IMG/VR virus record: IMGVR_UViG_3300046746_000245
Span: 1-32,525 of that record
Strand: one strand, 5' to 3'
Length of the DNA: 32,525 nt
Source of the DNA: a virus
The first letter of the stretch is position 1; each line of letters begins with the position of its first letter. Positions 10,074 through 18,042 of the stretch are shown in pieces. The notes under the pieces were generated by a model. That model worked only from the letters and a program-made list of their open reading frames with translations. It was not told where the DNA came from and searched no databases. A program made the translations under genes and the position numbers.

Positions 10074-10493
10074 TTACTTAAACCAGCCTACCTTTTCTCC
10101 AGCATCTAATCTACGTGTATGCTCTTCAACTGTTCCTGGATACCTCCACGCCCATATTGCAACTAATGCCATAAAGCCTCCGCTCCATATTGCAGCATTG
10201 ATATTATAGGTTGTGAACCATAGGAATGCAAGTGAAGAACTCATTACAATCACCATTGCATATTTGCCTTTTGTTGGAAATACTCTCTTTTGTGTCCAGT
10301 TTGTAAGGAACGGGCCAAAGTATTTGTGATTGTATATCCAGTCGTGCATCTTTTTACTACTTTTTGCAAAACAATAAGCAGCAAACACTAAGAATATACT
10401 GAACGGTATTCCCGGAACAATTACACCAACATATGCCATACCGAGACTCATAAAGCCTAAGCAGAGCCATATATACTTTTTAATTTTATTCAT
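10074..10493 (-). CDS. DUF454 (YbaN-like) inner membrane protein
   Basis: About four membrane segments and the family signature are visible: [19 protein letters not shown] near the start, [27 protein letters not shown], and a lysine-rich TKGKYAM. DUF454/YbaN proteins are inner-membrane proteins of unknown function. The start codon overlaps the end of the 5-aminolevulinate synthase gene by 8 bp, implying co-expression from the late promoter at 11706-11714. The link with heme synthesis is therefore positional. Confidence 0.85.
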
Positions 10494-11682
10494 AAATTAC
10501 CTTTCGTAGTGCATCAACTAGCTGATGCATCATCGCATCTGTATGTAAAGGAGTAGGCGCAATGCGTAAACGTTCTTCTCCAACTGCAACCGTCGGATAG
10601 TTGATCGGTTGAATGTATATACCAAACTCATTTAATAATGTGTCGCTCATAGTTTTGCATCGTTTGGCATCACGAACCATTACAGGCACGATGTGAGTGC
10701 AAGCAACATCAAGAACTTCTATGTCCACCTCGGATAACATTGCTTTTAGTTTATCTGCACGTTCTTGATGTTGCACTCTAAGGTCGTTATGATCCTTAAG
10801 ATATTTAATAGAAGCAAGAGCACCTGCACAAAGTACAGGGCTCATGCTTGTAGTAAAGATGAATCCACTCGCAACAGATCTGATTGCATCAACTACGATG
10901 CTATCTGCGGAAATGTATCCTCCTTGTACTCCATAGGCCTTACCTAAGGTGCCGTTTACTATATCGACTCTATCTTGAATACCTAGCTTTTCAAGGTAGC
11001 CTGCTCCATGGTTCCCATACAATCCTACCGCATGGACTTCATCGATATAGGTCATTGCGCCGTAGGCGTCTGCTAAATCACAGATCGAAGTTACCAGAGA
11101 CACATCGCCATCCATGCTATACACGGACTCAAAGACTATGCAAGGCGTAAGTCCTTTGGCGGAGACTTGACTCAGTTTCTCCTCTAGATCGCTCATGTCA
11201 TTGTGCTGCCATATGATCTTGTCAGCACCACTGTGTCGGATACCCTGTATTAGGCTTGCATGATTATTTGAATCACTCAAAAACACAATGTTGGGAATGA
11301 TTTTGCTTAGAGCTACTAGTGACCATTCATTGGCAACATAAGCTGAAGTAAAAAGGAGAGCAGCTCCTTTGCTATGCAGTCGGGCCAGCTCACTCTCTAA
11401 TGCTACATGATAGTGACTTGTGCCGCCAATGTTTCTTGTTCCGCCTGAACCACTTCCTGTTTGATCCAGTGCAGTATGCATCGCATCTATCACTACCTTA
11501 TGCTGACCCATACCTAGATAGTCGTTACTACACCAGTTCACAATATTCTTTATATTGTAAGGACCGTACCAGATAGCTTCAGGAAAATCTCCACGCTCTC
11601 TTACTATATCATTAAACACTCTGTACTTGCCAGATTGTTTTAATTCGTCTATTGTGTTTTCAAATGGTGTTAGATCTATCAT
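10486..11682 (-). CDS. hemA: 5-aminolevulinate synthase
   Basis: A PLP-dependent alpha-oxoamine synthase that would condense glycine and succinyl-CoA to 5-aminolevulinate, the first step of heme synthesis by the C4 (Shemin) pathway. At 398 residues it is full length. Key residues are present at the Rhodobacter-type positions: D214 and H217 ([10 protein letters not shown]) and the PLP lysine K248 ([10 protein letters not shown]). Also seen are [27 protein letters not shown] and [16 protein letters not shown]. The last two features distinguish ALAS from related AONS/KBL enzymes. The C4 pathway is essentially alphaproteobacterial among bacteria, so the gene points to the host class. It is probably active. 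Confidence 0.93.
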
Positions 11683-13895: not shown

Positions 13896-13916
13896 ATGGT
13901 ATTTAGTGTTTGTCAA
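13888..13916 (-). promoter_or_regulatory. sigma70-type promoter
   Basis: Minus strand TTGACA (13916-13911), 17 bp, TACAAT (13893-13888). It drives the gene at 13852. The spacer also contains TAAATACC. Confidence 0.7.
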
Positions 13917-14134
13917 CCGCCTGGGACAAAATCTTTTGGACGATACCACACTTTTTGATCGTGTAGCCGTCCTAGCAGTTCTTGTATCTCATGCATTTCG
14001 TCTTTCAACTTTTCAGATACATCGCCTTGAGCAATGGCCATTCCTCTACGGCCGGCCTTTGCTCTTAATGCTTGTTCGATAACCTCAATGTCTCTTACTG
14101 ATAATTCAAAGTTATTATTTGGTTTATTACTCAT
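13913..14134 (-). CDS. hypothetical protein (73 aa)
   Basis: I start at ATG 14134 (MSNKPNNNFELSVRDIEVIE), with GGAAG upstream and the stop of the tiny gene overlapping (TGATGA context). The protein is helical with an arginine-rich centre (RAKAGRRGMA) and a basic/aromatic end (QKVWYRPKDFVPGG). No family recognised. Last gene of the leftward module; its stop overlaps the -35 of the next promoter. Confidence 0.65.
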   Translation of the reverse strand: MSNKPNNNFELSVRDIEVIEQALRAKAGRRGMAIAQGDVSEKLKDEMHEIQELLGRLHDQKVWYRPKDFVPGG

Positions 14135-14211
14135 CGGTCTTCCATTAAACAGGCAAATGTTATCATACCAGCTATCCATCCGTATACAACGATAAAATAG
14201 AGTGCTGTCAT
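14131..14211 (-). CDS. tiny membrane protein (26 aa)
   Basis: ATG at 14211 overlaps the DUF6356 gene's stop by 4 bp (ATGA), and its own stop overlaps the next ATG. The whole product is one membrane helix (ALYFIVVYGWIAGMITFACL) plus MEDR. It is very small, but the double overlap argues for a true coupled gene. Confidence 0.5.
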   Translation of the reverse strand: MTALYFIVVYGWIAGMITFACLMEDR

Positions 14212-14405
14212 TGTTTTCTATCCTTTAGAATACTTTCCATTGTGTCTGTTGCTGTGGTTGTGAAGAAGCGTGGAGCAAAAGCATGAACTACAAGTGCAGG
14301 CACTAATAGCTGAAGTTTTACAGCTACTTTTAGTGCCTTAATCATATGTTCAGGTGCAGATTCTCCTACTGTTTCTAAATGTGCTTTACATTGATTACTA
14401 AACAT
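14208..14405 (-). CDS. DUF6356 family protein
   Basis: At 65 residues the protein has the layout I associate with DUF6356, a short family mostly of alphaproteobacteria: F-x-x-HLETVGES, then EHMIKALKVAVKLQLLVPAL, the conserved HAFAPRFFTTTATD, and a short polar end. One membrane-associated helix (residues 25-42). Function unknown. The ATG at 14405 follows AGGAGAATATA. Confidence 0.7.
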   Translation of the reverse strand: MFSNQCKAHLETVGESAPEHMIKALKVAVKLQLLVPALVVHAFAPRFFTTTATDTMESILKDRKQ

Positions 14406-14414
14406 TATATTCTC

Positions 14415-14639
14415 CTATGGACATTTAAAGTTTTTACATCCGCTTACATTTTGAGGATCATATACACTTCCGTCATATTGTGACCCTGTTTTGTTTTTGC
14501 CTGTTTCTACGCCAAAGTTACAACTTGCTACTGCAAGAAAAAAGGCTAATGATCCCCACACGGTAATTTTTGTCCAACGCATAAACCCTGCAAAGGAACG
14601 TTCAGCTTCTGCTTGTGCTTCTGGTCTTGGATCTGTCAT
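14415..14639 (-). CDS. aa3-type cytochrome oxidase subunit IV-like protein
   Basis: Start ATG 14639, 4-bp overlap with the DoxX gene stop. The first 45 residues (AEAERSFAGFMRWTKITVWG, then LAFFLAVASCN) match the layout of the bacterial aa3-type oxidase subunit IV family: acidic start, F-x-GF-x-R/K, one membrane helix ending A-x-x-N. A short extracytoplasmic tail carries two further cysteines (GCKNFKC). This is a motif-level match, so a plain small membrane protein remains possible. Its placement beside a cupredoxin and DoxX supports a respiratory role. Confidence 0.55.
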   Translation of the reverse strand: MTDPRPEAQAEAERSFAGFMRWTKITVWGSLAFFLAVASCNFGVETGKNKTGSQYDGSVYDPQNVSGCKNFKCP

Positions 14640-15040
14640 GTTCTGTTTCCTCGCAGAGCAAAATACATTCCGCCTACCCAAAGTAGTACATGAAGATTGT
14701 CATACCATAAGACGTCCCAGAAACTTTCAGGTTCGCCTGTCCATATAACACCTGTCATAATACTTGCAATAGTAATGCCACTAAAACGTGTGATGATATC
14801 ACCAAACTCTTTTGTTCGTTTGATATAGTCTGCTAAACCGCCAATTAATAATCCTCCAGCGGCTCCAAGTTCTCCTATTACAACAAAGGACCACACCAGT
14901 AGGGTTAATTCTACTGGCGAGTCTTCAATGTTGATTGGCCACTTGTTCAAACCTTGCTGTAGGAATATAACAATTAATGGAATACGTAGTAGCCAATGAG
15001 TCATACAAAACTCAGGTATTTTATTAACCAAACTTTTCAT
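14636..15040 (-). CDS. DoxX-like membrane protein
   Basis: Four membrane segments; the opening LLRIPLIVIFLQQGLNKWP is the DoxX signature (R-x-x-L-x-x-x-F-x-x-x-G-x-x-K), and a glycine-rich second helix follows (VIGELGAAGGLLIGGLADYI). DoxX proteins are linked to quinone-linked electron transfer and thiol stress, although many are uncharacterised. It overlaps both neighbours by 4 bp and so is part of the pseudoazurin operon. Confidence 0.8.
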   Translation of the reverse strand: MKSLVNKIPEFCMTHWLLRIPLIVIFLQQGLNKWPINIEDSPVELTLLVWSFVVIGELGAAGGLLIGGLADYIKRTKEFGDIITRFSGITIASIMTGVIWTGEPESFWDVLWYDNLHVLLWVGGMYFALRGNRT

Positions 15041-15327
15041 TCCAAATGATCCTCAGCACCATATGCTTCTTGCCAATACTCATGTGTTTGATATGCTGCC
15101 GTAACATAGCCTGCCGCAAACGCAAATAGAACCAATGCTGTAATCTTAAGATTCTTTTTCAGTCCGCCTTTGCCTTTGCTGCGTTTGTATGCTCGCCACA
15201 TCCACCAAAAGCCGCCAATGGTAAGCACTGTGCTGAGTGCAATAATCCAAGGGTTGCTTGCTAGTTGTGCTCCTGTTGCACCAAATATAAGCAATAGAAG
15301 TCCGTTAATGTAACATGCTGGACACAT
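15037..15327 (-). CDS. membrane protein with N-terminal CPxC motif (96 aa)
   Basis: Begins MCPACYINGLLLLIFGATGA. The CPAC pair (C2, C5) resembles a redox or metal-binding CxxC beside the membrane. Three helices are likely: residues 8-22, 27-45 and 60-78 (ITALVLFAFAAGYVTAAY). The start overlaps the pseudoazurin stop by one base. It could pass copper or electrons to its neighbour; that is inference. No family name assigned. Confidence 0.75.
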   Translation of the reverse strand: MCPACYINGLLLLIFGATGAQLASNPWIIALSTVLTIGGFWWMWRAYKRSKGKGGLKKNLKITALVLFAFAAGYVTAAYQTHEYWQEAYGAEDHLE

Positions 15328-15752
15328 TATAGATCAGCCAATAACTCTTTTAGTTTCTTCTTTGATTTGCCACGTACTTTTGCACCTTTAATTGCATCAA
15401 CACCTTCTTGTGTCAACTCACCTACAACAACAATAGCAATCATGCCCATGCTTTTGTGTGGAGTACACTGATACAAGTATACACCTGGTGTATCAAATGT
15501 GATTGTAACTTCTTTTGACAGTTTTGATTTCTTAGGTGCGTCCCATCCATCTGGACCAGCAATGAATTCTACATTGTGACCTTTTGATGTTGGTAGCCAT
15601 GTGATTGAATCTCCTACTTCGATAGTTGAGATATCTTCACTATAAACCATCTTAGCGCCGTCATCACGCTTGTTCAGCATGTCAACGGATATGTCAGCTG
15701 CAAATGCAGGTGCTGCTAAAAACAGAGCAGCGGCTGTGACTAGATTTCGCAT
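15327..15752 (-). CDS. pseudoazurin (type 1 copper protein)
   Basis: I start at ATG 15752 (MRNLVTAAALFLAAPAFA), after AAAGGAAAACAAT; the longer frame would cover the promoter. A signal peptide ends at AFA-AD (about residue 19), so the mature protein is periplasmic. Type 1 copper ligands of the pseudoazurin pattern are all present: H59 (SKGHNVEF), C96, H99 and M104 (YQCTPHKSMGM). A lysine-rich helical tail follows (KVRGKSKKKLKELL), as in pseudoazurins. These proteins carry electrons to denitrification enzymes or oxidases. At 141 residues it is full length and probably functional. Confidence 0.9.
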   Translation of the reverse strand: MRNLVTAAALFLAAPAFAADISVDMLNKRDDGAKMVYSEDISTIEVGDSITWLPTSKGHNVEFIAGPDGWDAPKKSKLSKEVTITFDTPGVYLYQCTPHKSMGMIAIVVVGELTQEGVDAIKGAKVRGKSKKKLKELLADL

Positions 15753-15787
15753 ATTGTTTTCCTTTGTCTGTAAATATGTGTGTAATA

Positions 15788-15816
15788 TATATAGCATGAC
15801 TTAACCTGTTTGTCAA
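15788..15816 (-). promoter_or_regulatory. sigma70-type promoter for pseudoazurin operon
   Basis: Minus strand TTGACA (15816-15811), 17 bp, TATATA (15793-15788), about 35 bp upstream of the pseudoazurin ATG. Confidence 0.7.
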
Positions 15817-15832
15817 GTCATGCTGAGTGTGT

Positions 15833-15855
15833 AATATTGTAGCAGTTACAATATT
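15833..15855. promoter_or_regulatory. perfect inverted repeat AATATTGTA-N5-TACAATATT
   Basis: Two 9-bp arms flank GCAGT, just upstream of the pseudoazurin -35 and overlapping the stop of the 15854 gene. It could be an operator related to the TGTAAC dyads nearby, or a weak terminator for the upstream gene (few T residues follow). Confidence 0.5.
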
Positions 15856-15988
15856 ATGATGTTGGATACATGTTATGTTTGTATTCTGAAATACGCTGTG
15901 CTTCTTTAAACATACCTTTGCTACGCAATTCACGAATTGCCATGCAGTATGAACGATATTCCATTGCTTTCAAAAATCTCTTAAACAT
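15854..15988 (-). CDS. small basic protein (44 aa)
   Basis: ATG at 15988 lies eight bases inside the upstream gene, with GGAGATAAAG as ribosome binding site. The protein reads MFKRFLKAMEYRSYCMAIRE, then LRSKGMFKEAQRISEY. The segment REL-x-S-x-G-x-x-KEA resembles AELSRQGFHKEA in the gene upstream and ELSRLTTHEL in the DUF1127 gene, so these three may share a small helical unit. Function unknown. Confidence 0.65.
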   Translation of the reverse strand: MFKRFLKAMEYRSYCMAIRELRSKGMFKEAQRISEYKHNMYPTS

Positions 15989-16175
15989 CTTTATCTCCTA
16001 GCATCAATGCTTTGGCTTCTTTGTGAAAGCCTTGGCGTGATAGTTCAGCTGCTGCTCTTGCTCTGCCTGCTGATTCTCCAAATGCCCAAACACCCATTGC
16101 AAATGCAACTAGATATTTGCTAAGTGTTTTGATAAACTTTGGTGTTGATACGGGTGTTTCGCCTACTGCTTCCAT
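15981..16175 (-). CDS. small hypothetical protein (64 aa)
   Basis: ATG at 16175 (MEAVGETPVSTPKFIKTLSK) overlaps the DUF1127 stop by one base; GAGAGG is upstream. A moderately hydrophobic helix (LVAFAMGVWAFGESAGRARA) is followed by AAELSRQGFHKEAKALM, a YjiS-like short helical segment. Possibly membrane-associated. Function unknown. Confidence 0.65.
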   Translation of the reverse strand: MEAVGETPVSTPKFIKTLSKYLVAFAMGVWAFGESAGRARAAAELSRQGFHKEAKALMLGDKDV

Positions 16176-16435
16176 TATACCCAACCTCTCAAGTTACGGT
16201 TGATTTCTACAAGTTCACCGTATGCTGATTTTGGATATGACTGGTGTGCTATAAACTTGATATCGCCTCGTGAAAGACCAATGTCGTTTAGTTCATGGGT
16301 TGTAAGTCTTGAAAGCTCATTGATAGTGTGTTTGATGTTTCTGCGTCTTTTGATTTCGGCACCTAGTCTTTTGAAAAAGTTAGCGATGCCGTGAAGTCCA
16401 ACTGTTTCGAATGTGTTTGCTACTAAAGTAGTCAT
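16175..16435 (-). CDS. DUF1127 (YjiS-like) domain protein
   Basis: ATG 16435 with AAAGGAAAATAAC upstream. The C-terminal half carries the DUF1127 motif: basic RRRNIKHTINELSRLTTHEL, then NDIGLSRGDIKFIA. In alphaproteobacteria DUF1127 proteins are small arginine-rich regulators, some tied to phosphate and RNA metabolism. It is set between a structured leader and other mini-proteins and lies 600 bp from a phosphate permease gene, which is suggestive only. Confidence 0.8.
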   Translation of the reverse strand: MTTLVANTFETVGLHGIANFFKRLGAEIKRRRNIKHTINELSRLTTHELNDIGLSRGDIKFIAHQSYPKSAYGELVEINRNLRGWV

Positions 16436-16605
16436 GTTATTTTCCTTTGTATATATGTGTGTGTGATTTCTAAGGTTCGTCACGTACCCCGGTCTCTTCC
16501 GGCGTCACCTTTGTATGGCATAGGACATGCCCTTCATCATTTTTATAGAGCTGAAGACGCTCTAGTAGTTTGAAATAGGACAGTCTGACTGCCCTATCTC
16601 GCTTT
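16436..16605 (-). ncRNA. structured leader / candidate small RNA
   Basis: No gene fits here. Read on the minus strand, the leader of the DUF1127 gene can fold into four hairpins: GGGCAG-loop-CTGTCC (near 16594-16579), TAGAGC-GTCTTCA-GCTCTA (near 16564-16546), GGCAT-GTCCT-ATGCC (16533-16519) and CCGG-AAGAGA-CCGG (near 16502-16489). It could be an attenuator, a riboswitch or a processed RNA. It matches no riboswitch class I know. Confidence 0.4.
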
Positions 16606-17070: not shown

Positions 17071-18042
17071 ATGGACGCACTCACCTTATGGAGCCTACTT
17101 GGCTTCTTATTAGCTGCCTATGCAGTTATAGCAAACGATTCAGTACAGACTCTCGGTACATGGATGGCATCAAACAATGAGAGATTCAACTATAAAGTAT
17201 TATGGGCAGCAGCAAGTGCAGTATTACTTGCAACACTATGGTATGGTTGGAGTGTAAATGGTGGAGACATCAGTTACGGCAGATTAAACAAAATCCCATG
17301 GCAAGAGGTACAATGGTATCACGCAGCCGCACCTGCTATTCTTGTAGCACTTACAAGGATGGGCGTACCAGTTAGCACAAGTTTCTTAGTGCTGTCAGTA
17401 TTTGCTAGTACCTTTGTACTAGAGAAGATGCTTATGAAATCAATCATGGGCTATGGTGTTGCAGCCGCATTTGCATATGCAGTATGGTTTGCAATACACA
17501 AGTACTTCGGTAGATGGTATGATGAAACTGAAAAGGTTGCTGAAAAGAACAAGAAGTTTTGGCGTGTAGCACAATGGGTAGCAACAGGCGGCTTGTGGTG
17601 GACTTGGTTGTCACATGACATGGCAAACATTGCAGTGTTCCTTCCACGTGAAGTTCCGCTGGACCTAATGTTCCTAGTCAGCGCAGTGTTCGTAGGCGGC
17701 TTGTTCTTTATGTTTAGAGAACGAGGCGGCAAGATACAACAGATTGTACTAGAGAAACACAACACAAGATATGTGCGTAGTGCAACGTTGATTGACTTGT
17801 TCTACTGGCTATGCTTATACTTCTTTAAAGAGCTCAACGATATTCCAATGTCAACAACATGGGTGTTCGTAGGCTTGTTAGCAGGACGTGAGTTGGCTAT
17901 GGCAACCTACTTTGGCAAGAAGAAAACCAAATCAGTGTTTCCACTAGTGGCAAAAGACTTTGGTAAGATGATGGTAGGACTAGGCGCAAGTGTCGCACTT
18001 GTTCTAATGATCCATTATATTATTGTACCAAACGGACTATAA
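17071..18042 (+). CDS. PiT-family-like inorganic phosphate permease
   Basis: A 323-residue integral membrane protein with about eight or nine helices and the internal duplication of PiT/PHO4 transporters: ANDSVQTLGT (21-30) paired with HDMANIAVFLPR (182-193), and GVPVSTSF (98-105) paired with DIPMSTTWVF (257-266). PiT proteins take up phosphate (or metal-phosphate) with a cation. GGAGAAAGAA precedes the ATG. It is shorter than typical bacterial PitA (about 500 residues) and lacks the long central loop. Own regulated promoter and terminator; likely boosts phosphate uptake for phage DNA synthesis. Confidence 0.8.
   Translation: MDALTLWSLLGFLLAAYAVIANDSVQTLGTWMASNNERFNYKVLWAAASAVLLATLWYGWSVNGGDISYGRLNKIPWQEVQWYHAAAPAILVALTRMGVPVSTSFLVLSVFASTFVLEKMLMKSIMGYGVAAAFAYAVWFAIHKYFGRWYDETEKVAEKNKKFWRVAQWVATGGLWWTWLSHDMANIAVFLPREVPLDLMFLVSAVFVGGLFFMFRERGGKIQQIVLEKHNTRYVRSATLIDLFYWLCLYFFKELNDIPMSTTWVFVGLLAGRELAMATYFGKKKTKSVFPLVAKDFGKMMVGLGASVALVLMIHYIIVPNGL

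Follow-up and report, generated by a model that had tools for sequence, protein, structure and literature searches.

A putative phage gene cassette for respiratory electron transfer, with a copper or heme carrier next to DoxX

A compact run of minus-strand genes, from about position 16,435 down to 13,913 of an IMG/VR virus record (32,525 bases, analyzed over its full length and referred to below as the window), encodes a secreted pseudoazurin-type blue-copper protein together with several small membrane proteins, among them relatives of DoxX and of subunit IV of aa3-type cytochrome c oxidase. With moderate confidence, we read this run as a phage respiratory electron-carrier cassette that would serve the aa3-type oxidase of the host. 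The strongest functional clue is an exchange of carriers: at one genomic position in other phages, probably of T4 type, the place of pseudoazurin is taken by a class I cytochrome c. Since periplasmic one-electron transfer is nearly all that copper and heme carriers have in common, this exchange argues for a carrier role and against copper storage.

Copper carrier of the window

All genes named in an initial annotation made from the sequence (pseudoazurin, CPxC protein, DoxX, oxidase subunit IV-like protein, DUF6356, and 26-residue protein) are present on the minus strand (Table 1). Successive genes overlap by TAATG (pseudoazurin and the CPxC gene, called CPAC below) or by ATGA (CPAC/DoxX, DoxX/subunit IV-like, and DUF6356/26-residue protein), and because of these start/stop overlaps the run is very likely co-translated.

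The carrier matches the Pfam family Copper-bind (PF00127) with an E-value of 3.1e-15 and 56.8 bits, which is over the cut-off of 21.2. As for the pseudoazurin family TIGR02375, the score of 105.3 bits (E-value 1.5e-30) falls narrowly under the NCBIfam cut-off of 109.85, hence the label pseudoazurin-type. In the alignment behind the family profile, made of 20 sequences from phages and 5 from bacteria, the type 1 copper ligands H59, C96, H99, and M104 are invariant (25/25 rows). These ligands, along with a signal peptide that by eye ends in AFA directly before AD, bear out the secreted pseudoazurin with four copper ligands of the initial annotation. The top PDB matches of the profile are pseudoazurins (from 4.8e-33), and the window protein also matches PHROG 515 PetE (1.9e-9).

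Gene neighborhood in related viruses

A scan of IMG/VR for pseudoazurin gave 409 candidate stretches, 339 of them confirmed, and the best 80 hold 56 distinct pseudoazurin DNAs. The corresponding scan for the DoxX family gave 478 relatives among 504 stretches, with 51 distinct loci in the best 80. Each scan was ranked by similarity and only its best 80 entries were kept, which biases these loci toward close relatives; loci with identical gene DNA were counted once, whereas relatedness between phages was not taken into account. Two viral-looking stretches from bacterial genome bins (L083 and L102) were counted with the phages wherever 2-kb flanks are specified; both, from Muricauda and Rhodobacteraceae bins, resemble pieces of these phages, having a pseudoazurin of phage type amid phage-like structural genes.

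DoxX is found near 46 and the subunit IV-like gene near 40 of the 60 distinct phage pseudoazurin loci that are flanked by 2 kb or more on both sides. Counted from DoxX instead, pseudoazurin, the subunit IV-like gene, and a gene for a three-helix protein called TM119 lie within 3 kb on the same strand in 45, 35, and 23 of the 51 distinct loci, respectively; this count is not fully independent, as the DoxX profile was built from pseudoazurin-found loci except for one contig row. The commonest order, seen in 19 of the 51, is TM119, subunit IV-like, pseudoazurin, DoxX. Judged from these neighborhoods, no other gene accompanies the carrier as constantly as that of the DoxX-like protein. The initial annotation had proposed searching for the cluster in other phages, and the neighborhood indeed recurs around both pseudoazurin and DoxX loci. 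Purifying selection is seen in all four families tested, with median ratios of nonsynonymous to synonymous substitution rates (dN/dS) of about 0.13–0.28 (pseudoazurin 0.145, DoxX 0.134, subunit IV-like 0.275, TM119 0.173), which marks their products as working proteins.

Regarding cultured relatives, none of the 50,697 phage records searched has a match to pseudoazurin, DoxX, or cytochrome c, and the same holds for a PiT-like transporter of the window and one protein of its structural region. One window protein matched 23 phage records, mostly T4-like cyanophages, at <26% identity. The T4-type capsid protein Gp23 is encoded in 2/7 large pseudoazurin-related virus records and in 3/3 cytochrome c records, and is not in the 32.5-kb window fragment.

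Exchange of copper and heme carriers

Pseudoazurin is absent within 3 kb in 6 of the 51 distinct DoxX loci. In locus L235, the gene overlapping the end of DoxX is that of a secreted cytochrome c of class I (PF00034, 7.6e-10); the closest PDB relatives of the phage cytochrome c are mitochondrial-type cytochromes c. A scan for this protein, which used one query sequence only and so missed other cytochromes, gave 21 loci, in many of which DoxX adjoins on either side. The clearest case is L320, whose 299,910-base record also contains a capsid gene of the T4 Gp23 type: the gene order at this locus is DUF1127, a 67-amino-acid (aa) protein, a 44-aa protein, cytochrome c, and DoxX, and the window has the same order with pseudoazurin and CPAC instead of cytochrome c. 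The DoxX proteins of the two are 65% identical (see Table 1 for the three upstream proteins). Both carriers together were found in none of the fetched phage loci. The subunit IV-like gene is linked to the copper carrier, being near 40/60 pseudoazurin loci vs 0/6 cytochrome c loci (Fisher p 0.0025, uncorrected for relatedness).

Membrane partners of the carrier

PF07681 (DoxX) is matched by all 20 rows of the phage DoxX family (best E-value 2e-8), and relatives in L031 and L070 exceed its cut-off with 32.9 and 29.5 bits, respectively. According to these family-level matches, the window protein is related to DoxX, and it is not filed as a member. Its predicted structure has four long helices, with a predicted local distance difference test score (pLDDT) of 81 and a predicted template modeling score (pTM) of 0.75. 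Foldseek reported no match to this model below an E-value of 0.58, and further fold comparison gave generic four-helix bundles with Z at most 10; quinone-binding DsbB, at Z 6.2, is not counted as evidence. DoxX is not known to have a cofactor site.

DoxX is the partner common to pseudoazurin loci, cytochrome c loci, and a third group containing COQ7, a hydroxylase of ubiquinone synthesis (PF03232, 1.7e-38). As COQ7 adjoins DoxX in 3/3 COQ7 loci, a role on the quinone side is suggested for the DoxX-like protein, which perhaps passes electrons from quinol to the carrier. These phage-borne COQ7 genes are in L301 (2719–4291), L333, and L334, and in L301 a CPAC gene adjoins too.

As for the subunit IV-like protein, PF07835 (aa3 subunit IV) is matched by 22 of the 23 family rows (best 3.6e-6), and the relative in L064 reaches 26.1 bits, over the cut-off. 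In PDB, 5 of the 6 matches of the family profile are aa3 subunit IV chains, at weak E-values of 0.08–0.9. In 12 bacterial genomes, 3 genes were matched by the phage profile, and PF07835 finds each of them as well. On these comparisons, the window protein is related to aa3 subunit IV without being filed as a member. Across the 23 phage rows a tail of ~30 residues after the helix is conserved (CN.GVE...Y.G..Y.P), and the bacterial subunit IV chains aligned to the profile without this C-terminal tail.

The initial annotation had tied its proposal to a respiratory relation of both the oxidase-like and the CPxC genes and to conservation of the cluster. The oxidase-like gene and the cluster withstand this comparison; the CPxC gene does not, and it is not supported as a core part of the module. 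CPAC matches no family over cut-off and has no respiratory relation by sequence, and pseudoazurin is nearby in only 2 of the 17 distinct CPAC loci with 2-kb flanks. IMG/VR holds 47 CPAC relatives, nearly all beginning with MCPACYIN, in many unrelated contexts, and contigs with a pseudoazurin only 75% identical to that of the window encode a CPAC protein that is 100% identical. Going by these contexts and identities, CPAC is a recently inserted gene that travels independently of the cassette. The MCPACYIN family (L266–L310) is a small membrane protein of many marine phages that tightly abuts its neighbor genes.

TM119 (e.g., L053, 5061–5420) has conserved histidines and ends in GGEHE; it occurs in the pseudoazurin neighborhood of many phages. 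No Pfam family matched it, and its structure model is poor (pLDDT 66).

Bacterial relatives, origin, and host

In 6 of 80 bacterial pseudoazurin loci, all of them marine alphaproteobacterial, genes resembling COX2, COX1, and COX3 run divergently from pseudoazurin on one side, and CtaG/Cox11 lies on the other (confirmed in 4/4 tested). Family tests supported COX1 in 5/6, COX2 in 2/2 tested, and COX3 in 1/2 tested, the other being without family. All 6 COX2 proteins have the CuA motif, and these oxidases would therefore take electrons from a soluble carrier and not from quinol. In three other bacterial loci, pseudoazurin adjoins 5-aminolevulinate synthase.

Among 12 genomes with related pseudoazurins, COX1 is found in 9 and aa3 subunit IV (PF07835) in 10. 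NirK and NosZ are over the curated cut-off in 0/12 each (NirS and NorB were not searched for), and Photo_RC is found in 0/12. All 12 are drafts, so absence in any one means little; the pattern over the twelve argues against denitrification. Close relatives of DoxX are found in two of these genomes, TM119 relatives in four (as a lone gene), and subunit IV in ten, and where the position was examined none of these genes is adjacent to pseudoazurin. Thus, as far as these few genomes indicate, genes that lie apart in these bacteria seem to have been assembled by the phages.

In a poorly resolved tree of 151 pseudoazurins (116 columns), the phage proteins group with Paracoccaceae and not with SAR11 or SAR116. 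A control search with PF07835 found a match only in Caulobacter. Because of the Paracoccaceae grouping and the presence of DUF1127, DUF6356, and PF07835 relatives, an alphaproteobacterium is the likely host.

Other features of the window

Table 1. Genes of the putative cassette and associated features in the window.
Feature	Position	Strand	Basis or remark
Pseudoazurin-type blue-copper protein, 141 aa, secreted	15327..15752	-	PF00127, copper ligands, PDB profile matches
CPAC (MCPACYIN) small membrane protein	15037..15327	-	no family over cut-off
DoxX-like four-helix membrane protein	14636..15040	-	PF07681 at family level
Relative of aa3 cytochrome c oxidase subunit IV, conserved C-terminal tail	14415..14639	-	PF07835 at family level
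DUF6356 protein, 65 aa	14208..14405	-	PF19883, 2.8e-11, 43.8 bits, over the cut-off of 24.4
26-residue membrane protein	14131..14211	-	open reading frame, ATGA overlap with DUF6356
Small conserved protein	13913..14134	-	in 21/56 distinct pseudoazurin loci; start probably 14134, judged from relatives
44-aa protein upstream of the carrier	15854..15988	-	kept in pseudoazurin and cytochrome c loci; 84% identity in L320
67-aa protein, same neighborhood	15981..16184	-	77% identity in L320
DUF1127 protein, same neighborhood	16175..16435	-	PF06568, 6.6e-12; 48% identity in L320
5-Aminolevulinate synthase (heme precursor)	10486..11682	-	TIGR01821, 1.5e-170; link to the cassette possible

The starts of the pseudoazurin and DUF1127 genes are preceded by similar leaders, ACACACATAT..ACAAAGGAAAA (15740–15790 and 16436–16465, minus strand), and a hairpin sits between the 44-aa gene and pseudoazurin. 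The T4 late promoter word TATAAATA occurs 4 times in the window vs 2.6 expected, which gives no support for such promoters. The 5-aminolevulinate synthase gene overlaps a gene for a membrane protein of the DUF454 family (PF04304, 1.7e-29); the two genes span 10074–11682 on the minus strand and recur as a pair in related phages, and the synthase lies at most 3.5 kb from the carrier in 8 of the 56 distinct pseudoazurin loci. On the plus strand, positions 17071–18042 encode a membrane protein that looks by eye like a phosphate transporter of PiT type, next to genes for UDP-glucose dehydrogenase and PRPP synthetase; many related phages keep this PiT-like gene adjacent to the cassette.

Discussion

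In the mechanism proposed here, the phage would supply a periplasmic one-electron carrier (copper pseudoazurin in the window, class I cytochrome c in relatives), which would deliver electrons to the CuA site of the aa3-type cytochrome c oxidase of the host. Oxygen respiration and proton pumping could then continue as host gene expression is lost, presumably to the benefit of the phage. The DoxX-like protein would be the constant membrane partner, probably acting on the quinone side or in carrier reduction, and the subunit IV-like protein, which accompanies the copper carrier only, probably enters or replaces subunit IV of the host oxidase.

Several results weigh against this reading. The window proteins themselves remain under the Pfam cut-offs, with 15.5 bits for the DoxX-like protein (PF07681 cut-off 23.6) and 15.1 bits for the subunit IV-like protein (PF07835 cut-off 22). 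DoxX is not near 14 and the subunit IV-like gene not near 20 of the 60 pseudoazurin loci. The cytochrome c loci are few, with 6 distinct ones having 2-kb flanks, 2 of them without DoxX, and only the identical stretches L320 and L321 combine the exchange with retention of all three upstream genes. COX2 is over cut-off in 0/11 large phage records; the oxidase partner must therefore be that of the host, and a phage-borne oxidase was rejected on this count. Finally, the reductases for nitrite, NO, and N2O are the partners of pseudoazurin in known denitrifiers, as described in the available part of a study of Paracoccus denitrificans, where the protein is made anaerobically (PMC12848317).

This last point leads to the part of the initial annotation that named respiration or denitrification as what the phage may keep running. 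If the carrier supported denitrification, it would feed a nitrite or N2O reductase of the host in low oxygen, and phages with nirK and norB are described, according to the accessible text of one study (PMC8115048). We nevertheless regard this as very improbable in view of the NirK and NosZ counts in the 12 draft genomes, set against those of COX1 and aa3 subunit IV, and of a cassette partner gene that is of oxidase type. The respiratory half of the proposal stands, in line with the cytochrome c exchange, the relation to subunit IV, and the linkage of bacterial pseudoazurins to CuA oxidases. Handling of copper or redox stress, with pseudoazurin as a copper sink, DoxX and CPAC as thiol-redox proteins, and no respiratory role, is only slightly less improbable: the CPAC motif is metal- or thiol-like and DoxX proteins are linked to redox stress in some bacteria, but the heme carrier taking the same place binds no copper, and CPAC is not a steady partner of the carrier. 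Feeding of the photosynthetic reaction centre of aerobic anoxygenic phototrophs is hardly credible; the phage does have 5-aminolevulinate synthase, which makes a heme and pigment precursor, and there are cyanophage parallels, but Photo_RC is missing from all 12 genomes with related pseudoazurins.

A different alternative is redirection of electron flow rather than its upkeep, in which the carrier and the subunit IV-like protein would shift the host oxidase from cytochrome c to the phage carrier, for example under iron shortage. The restriction of the subunit IV-like gene to copper loci and the post-helix tail lacking from the aligned bacterial subunits favor it. However, the six cytochrome c loci are few and related, and the net charges of carrier and tail, both near neutral, give no hint of simple electrostatic docking, an idea that was dropped; on balance we consider redirection unlikely. 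The same linkage to the copper carrier only opens a bolder extension of the cassette reading, which we advance tentatively and as less likely than not: an exchangeable socket for a copper or heme carrier beside DoxX, the copper version of which would have its subunit IV-like protein built into the host aa3 oxidase, retuning the oxidase to the phage copper carrier.

If the respiratory electron-carrier reading is true and the cassette is widespread, the reach of viruses of heterotrophic marine bacteria would extend to the final step of oxygen respiration in the cells they infect, and the choice of metal (copper or heme iron) could follow the metal supply of the ocean. The bolder extension, if true, would amount to viral rewiring of the terminal oxidase of the host.

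Comparison with known systems

Cyanophages are known to encode electron carriers, and these work in photosynthetic chains. Searches of the open-access PMC literature, a coverage that leaves out most subscription journals, gave no report of pseudoazurin, DoxX, or subunit IV encoded by a phage. Cellular contamination is reportedly a concern in viral-fraction data, to judge from the title of one paper (PMC3877843). From viral fractions of the Indian Ocean, the accessible text of another paper reports subunit I of a cbb3-type oxidase (PMC3474794). The available part of the viral nitrogen gene study cited above reports no such electron carriers in its phages (PMC8115048). As for the 5-aminolevulinate synthase gene, which the window phage carries, phage versions (valaS) are already described, according to the accessible text of a paper whose authors propose upkeep of heme respiration and whose main text, as far as available, lacks the words azurin, DoxX, and plastocyanin (PMC11480375).

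Among bacterial systems, the window carrier resembles the pseudoazurin of denitrifying bacteria in its copper ligands, length, and whole-length similarity. In contrast to it, the window protein is phage-encoded and just under the NCBIfam cut-off, has oxidase-type partners, and has its relatives in genomes where NirK and NosZ were not found over cut-off (0/12 each). The phage subunit IV-like protein shares an N-terminal stretch and a single helix with aa3 oxidase subunit IV (PF07835), but differs in the conserved ~30-residue tail after the helix and in a gene position away from any catalytic subunit.

Another close parallel is cyanophage plastocyanin (petE), likewise a small phage-borne blue-copper electron carrier, which is proposed, in the available part of one paper, to donate to cytochrome oxidase (PMC5083919). 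Unlike petE, the window cassette has a carrier of pseudoazurin type with alphaproteobacterial relatives, DoxX and subunit IV-like partners, and a cytochrome c replacement in other phages. The cassette can be read as comparable to cyanophage plastocyanin, but for heterotrophs.

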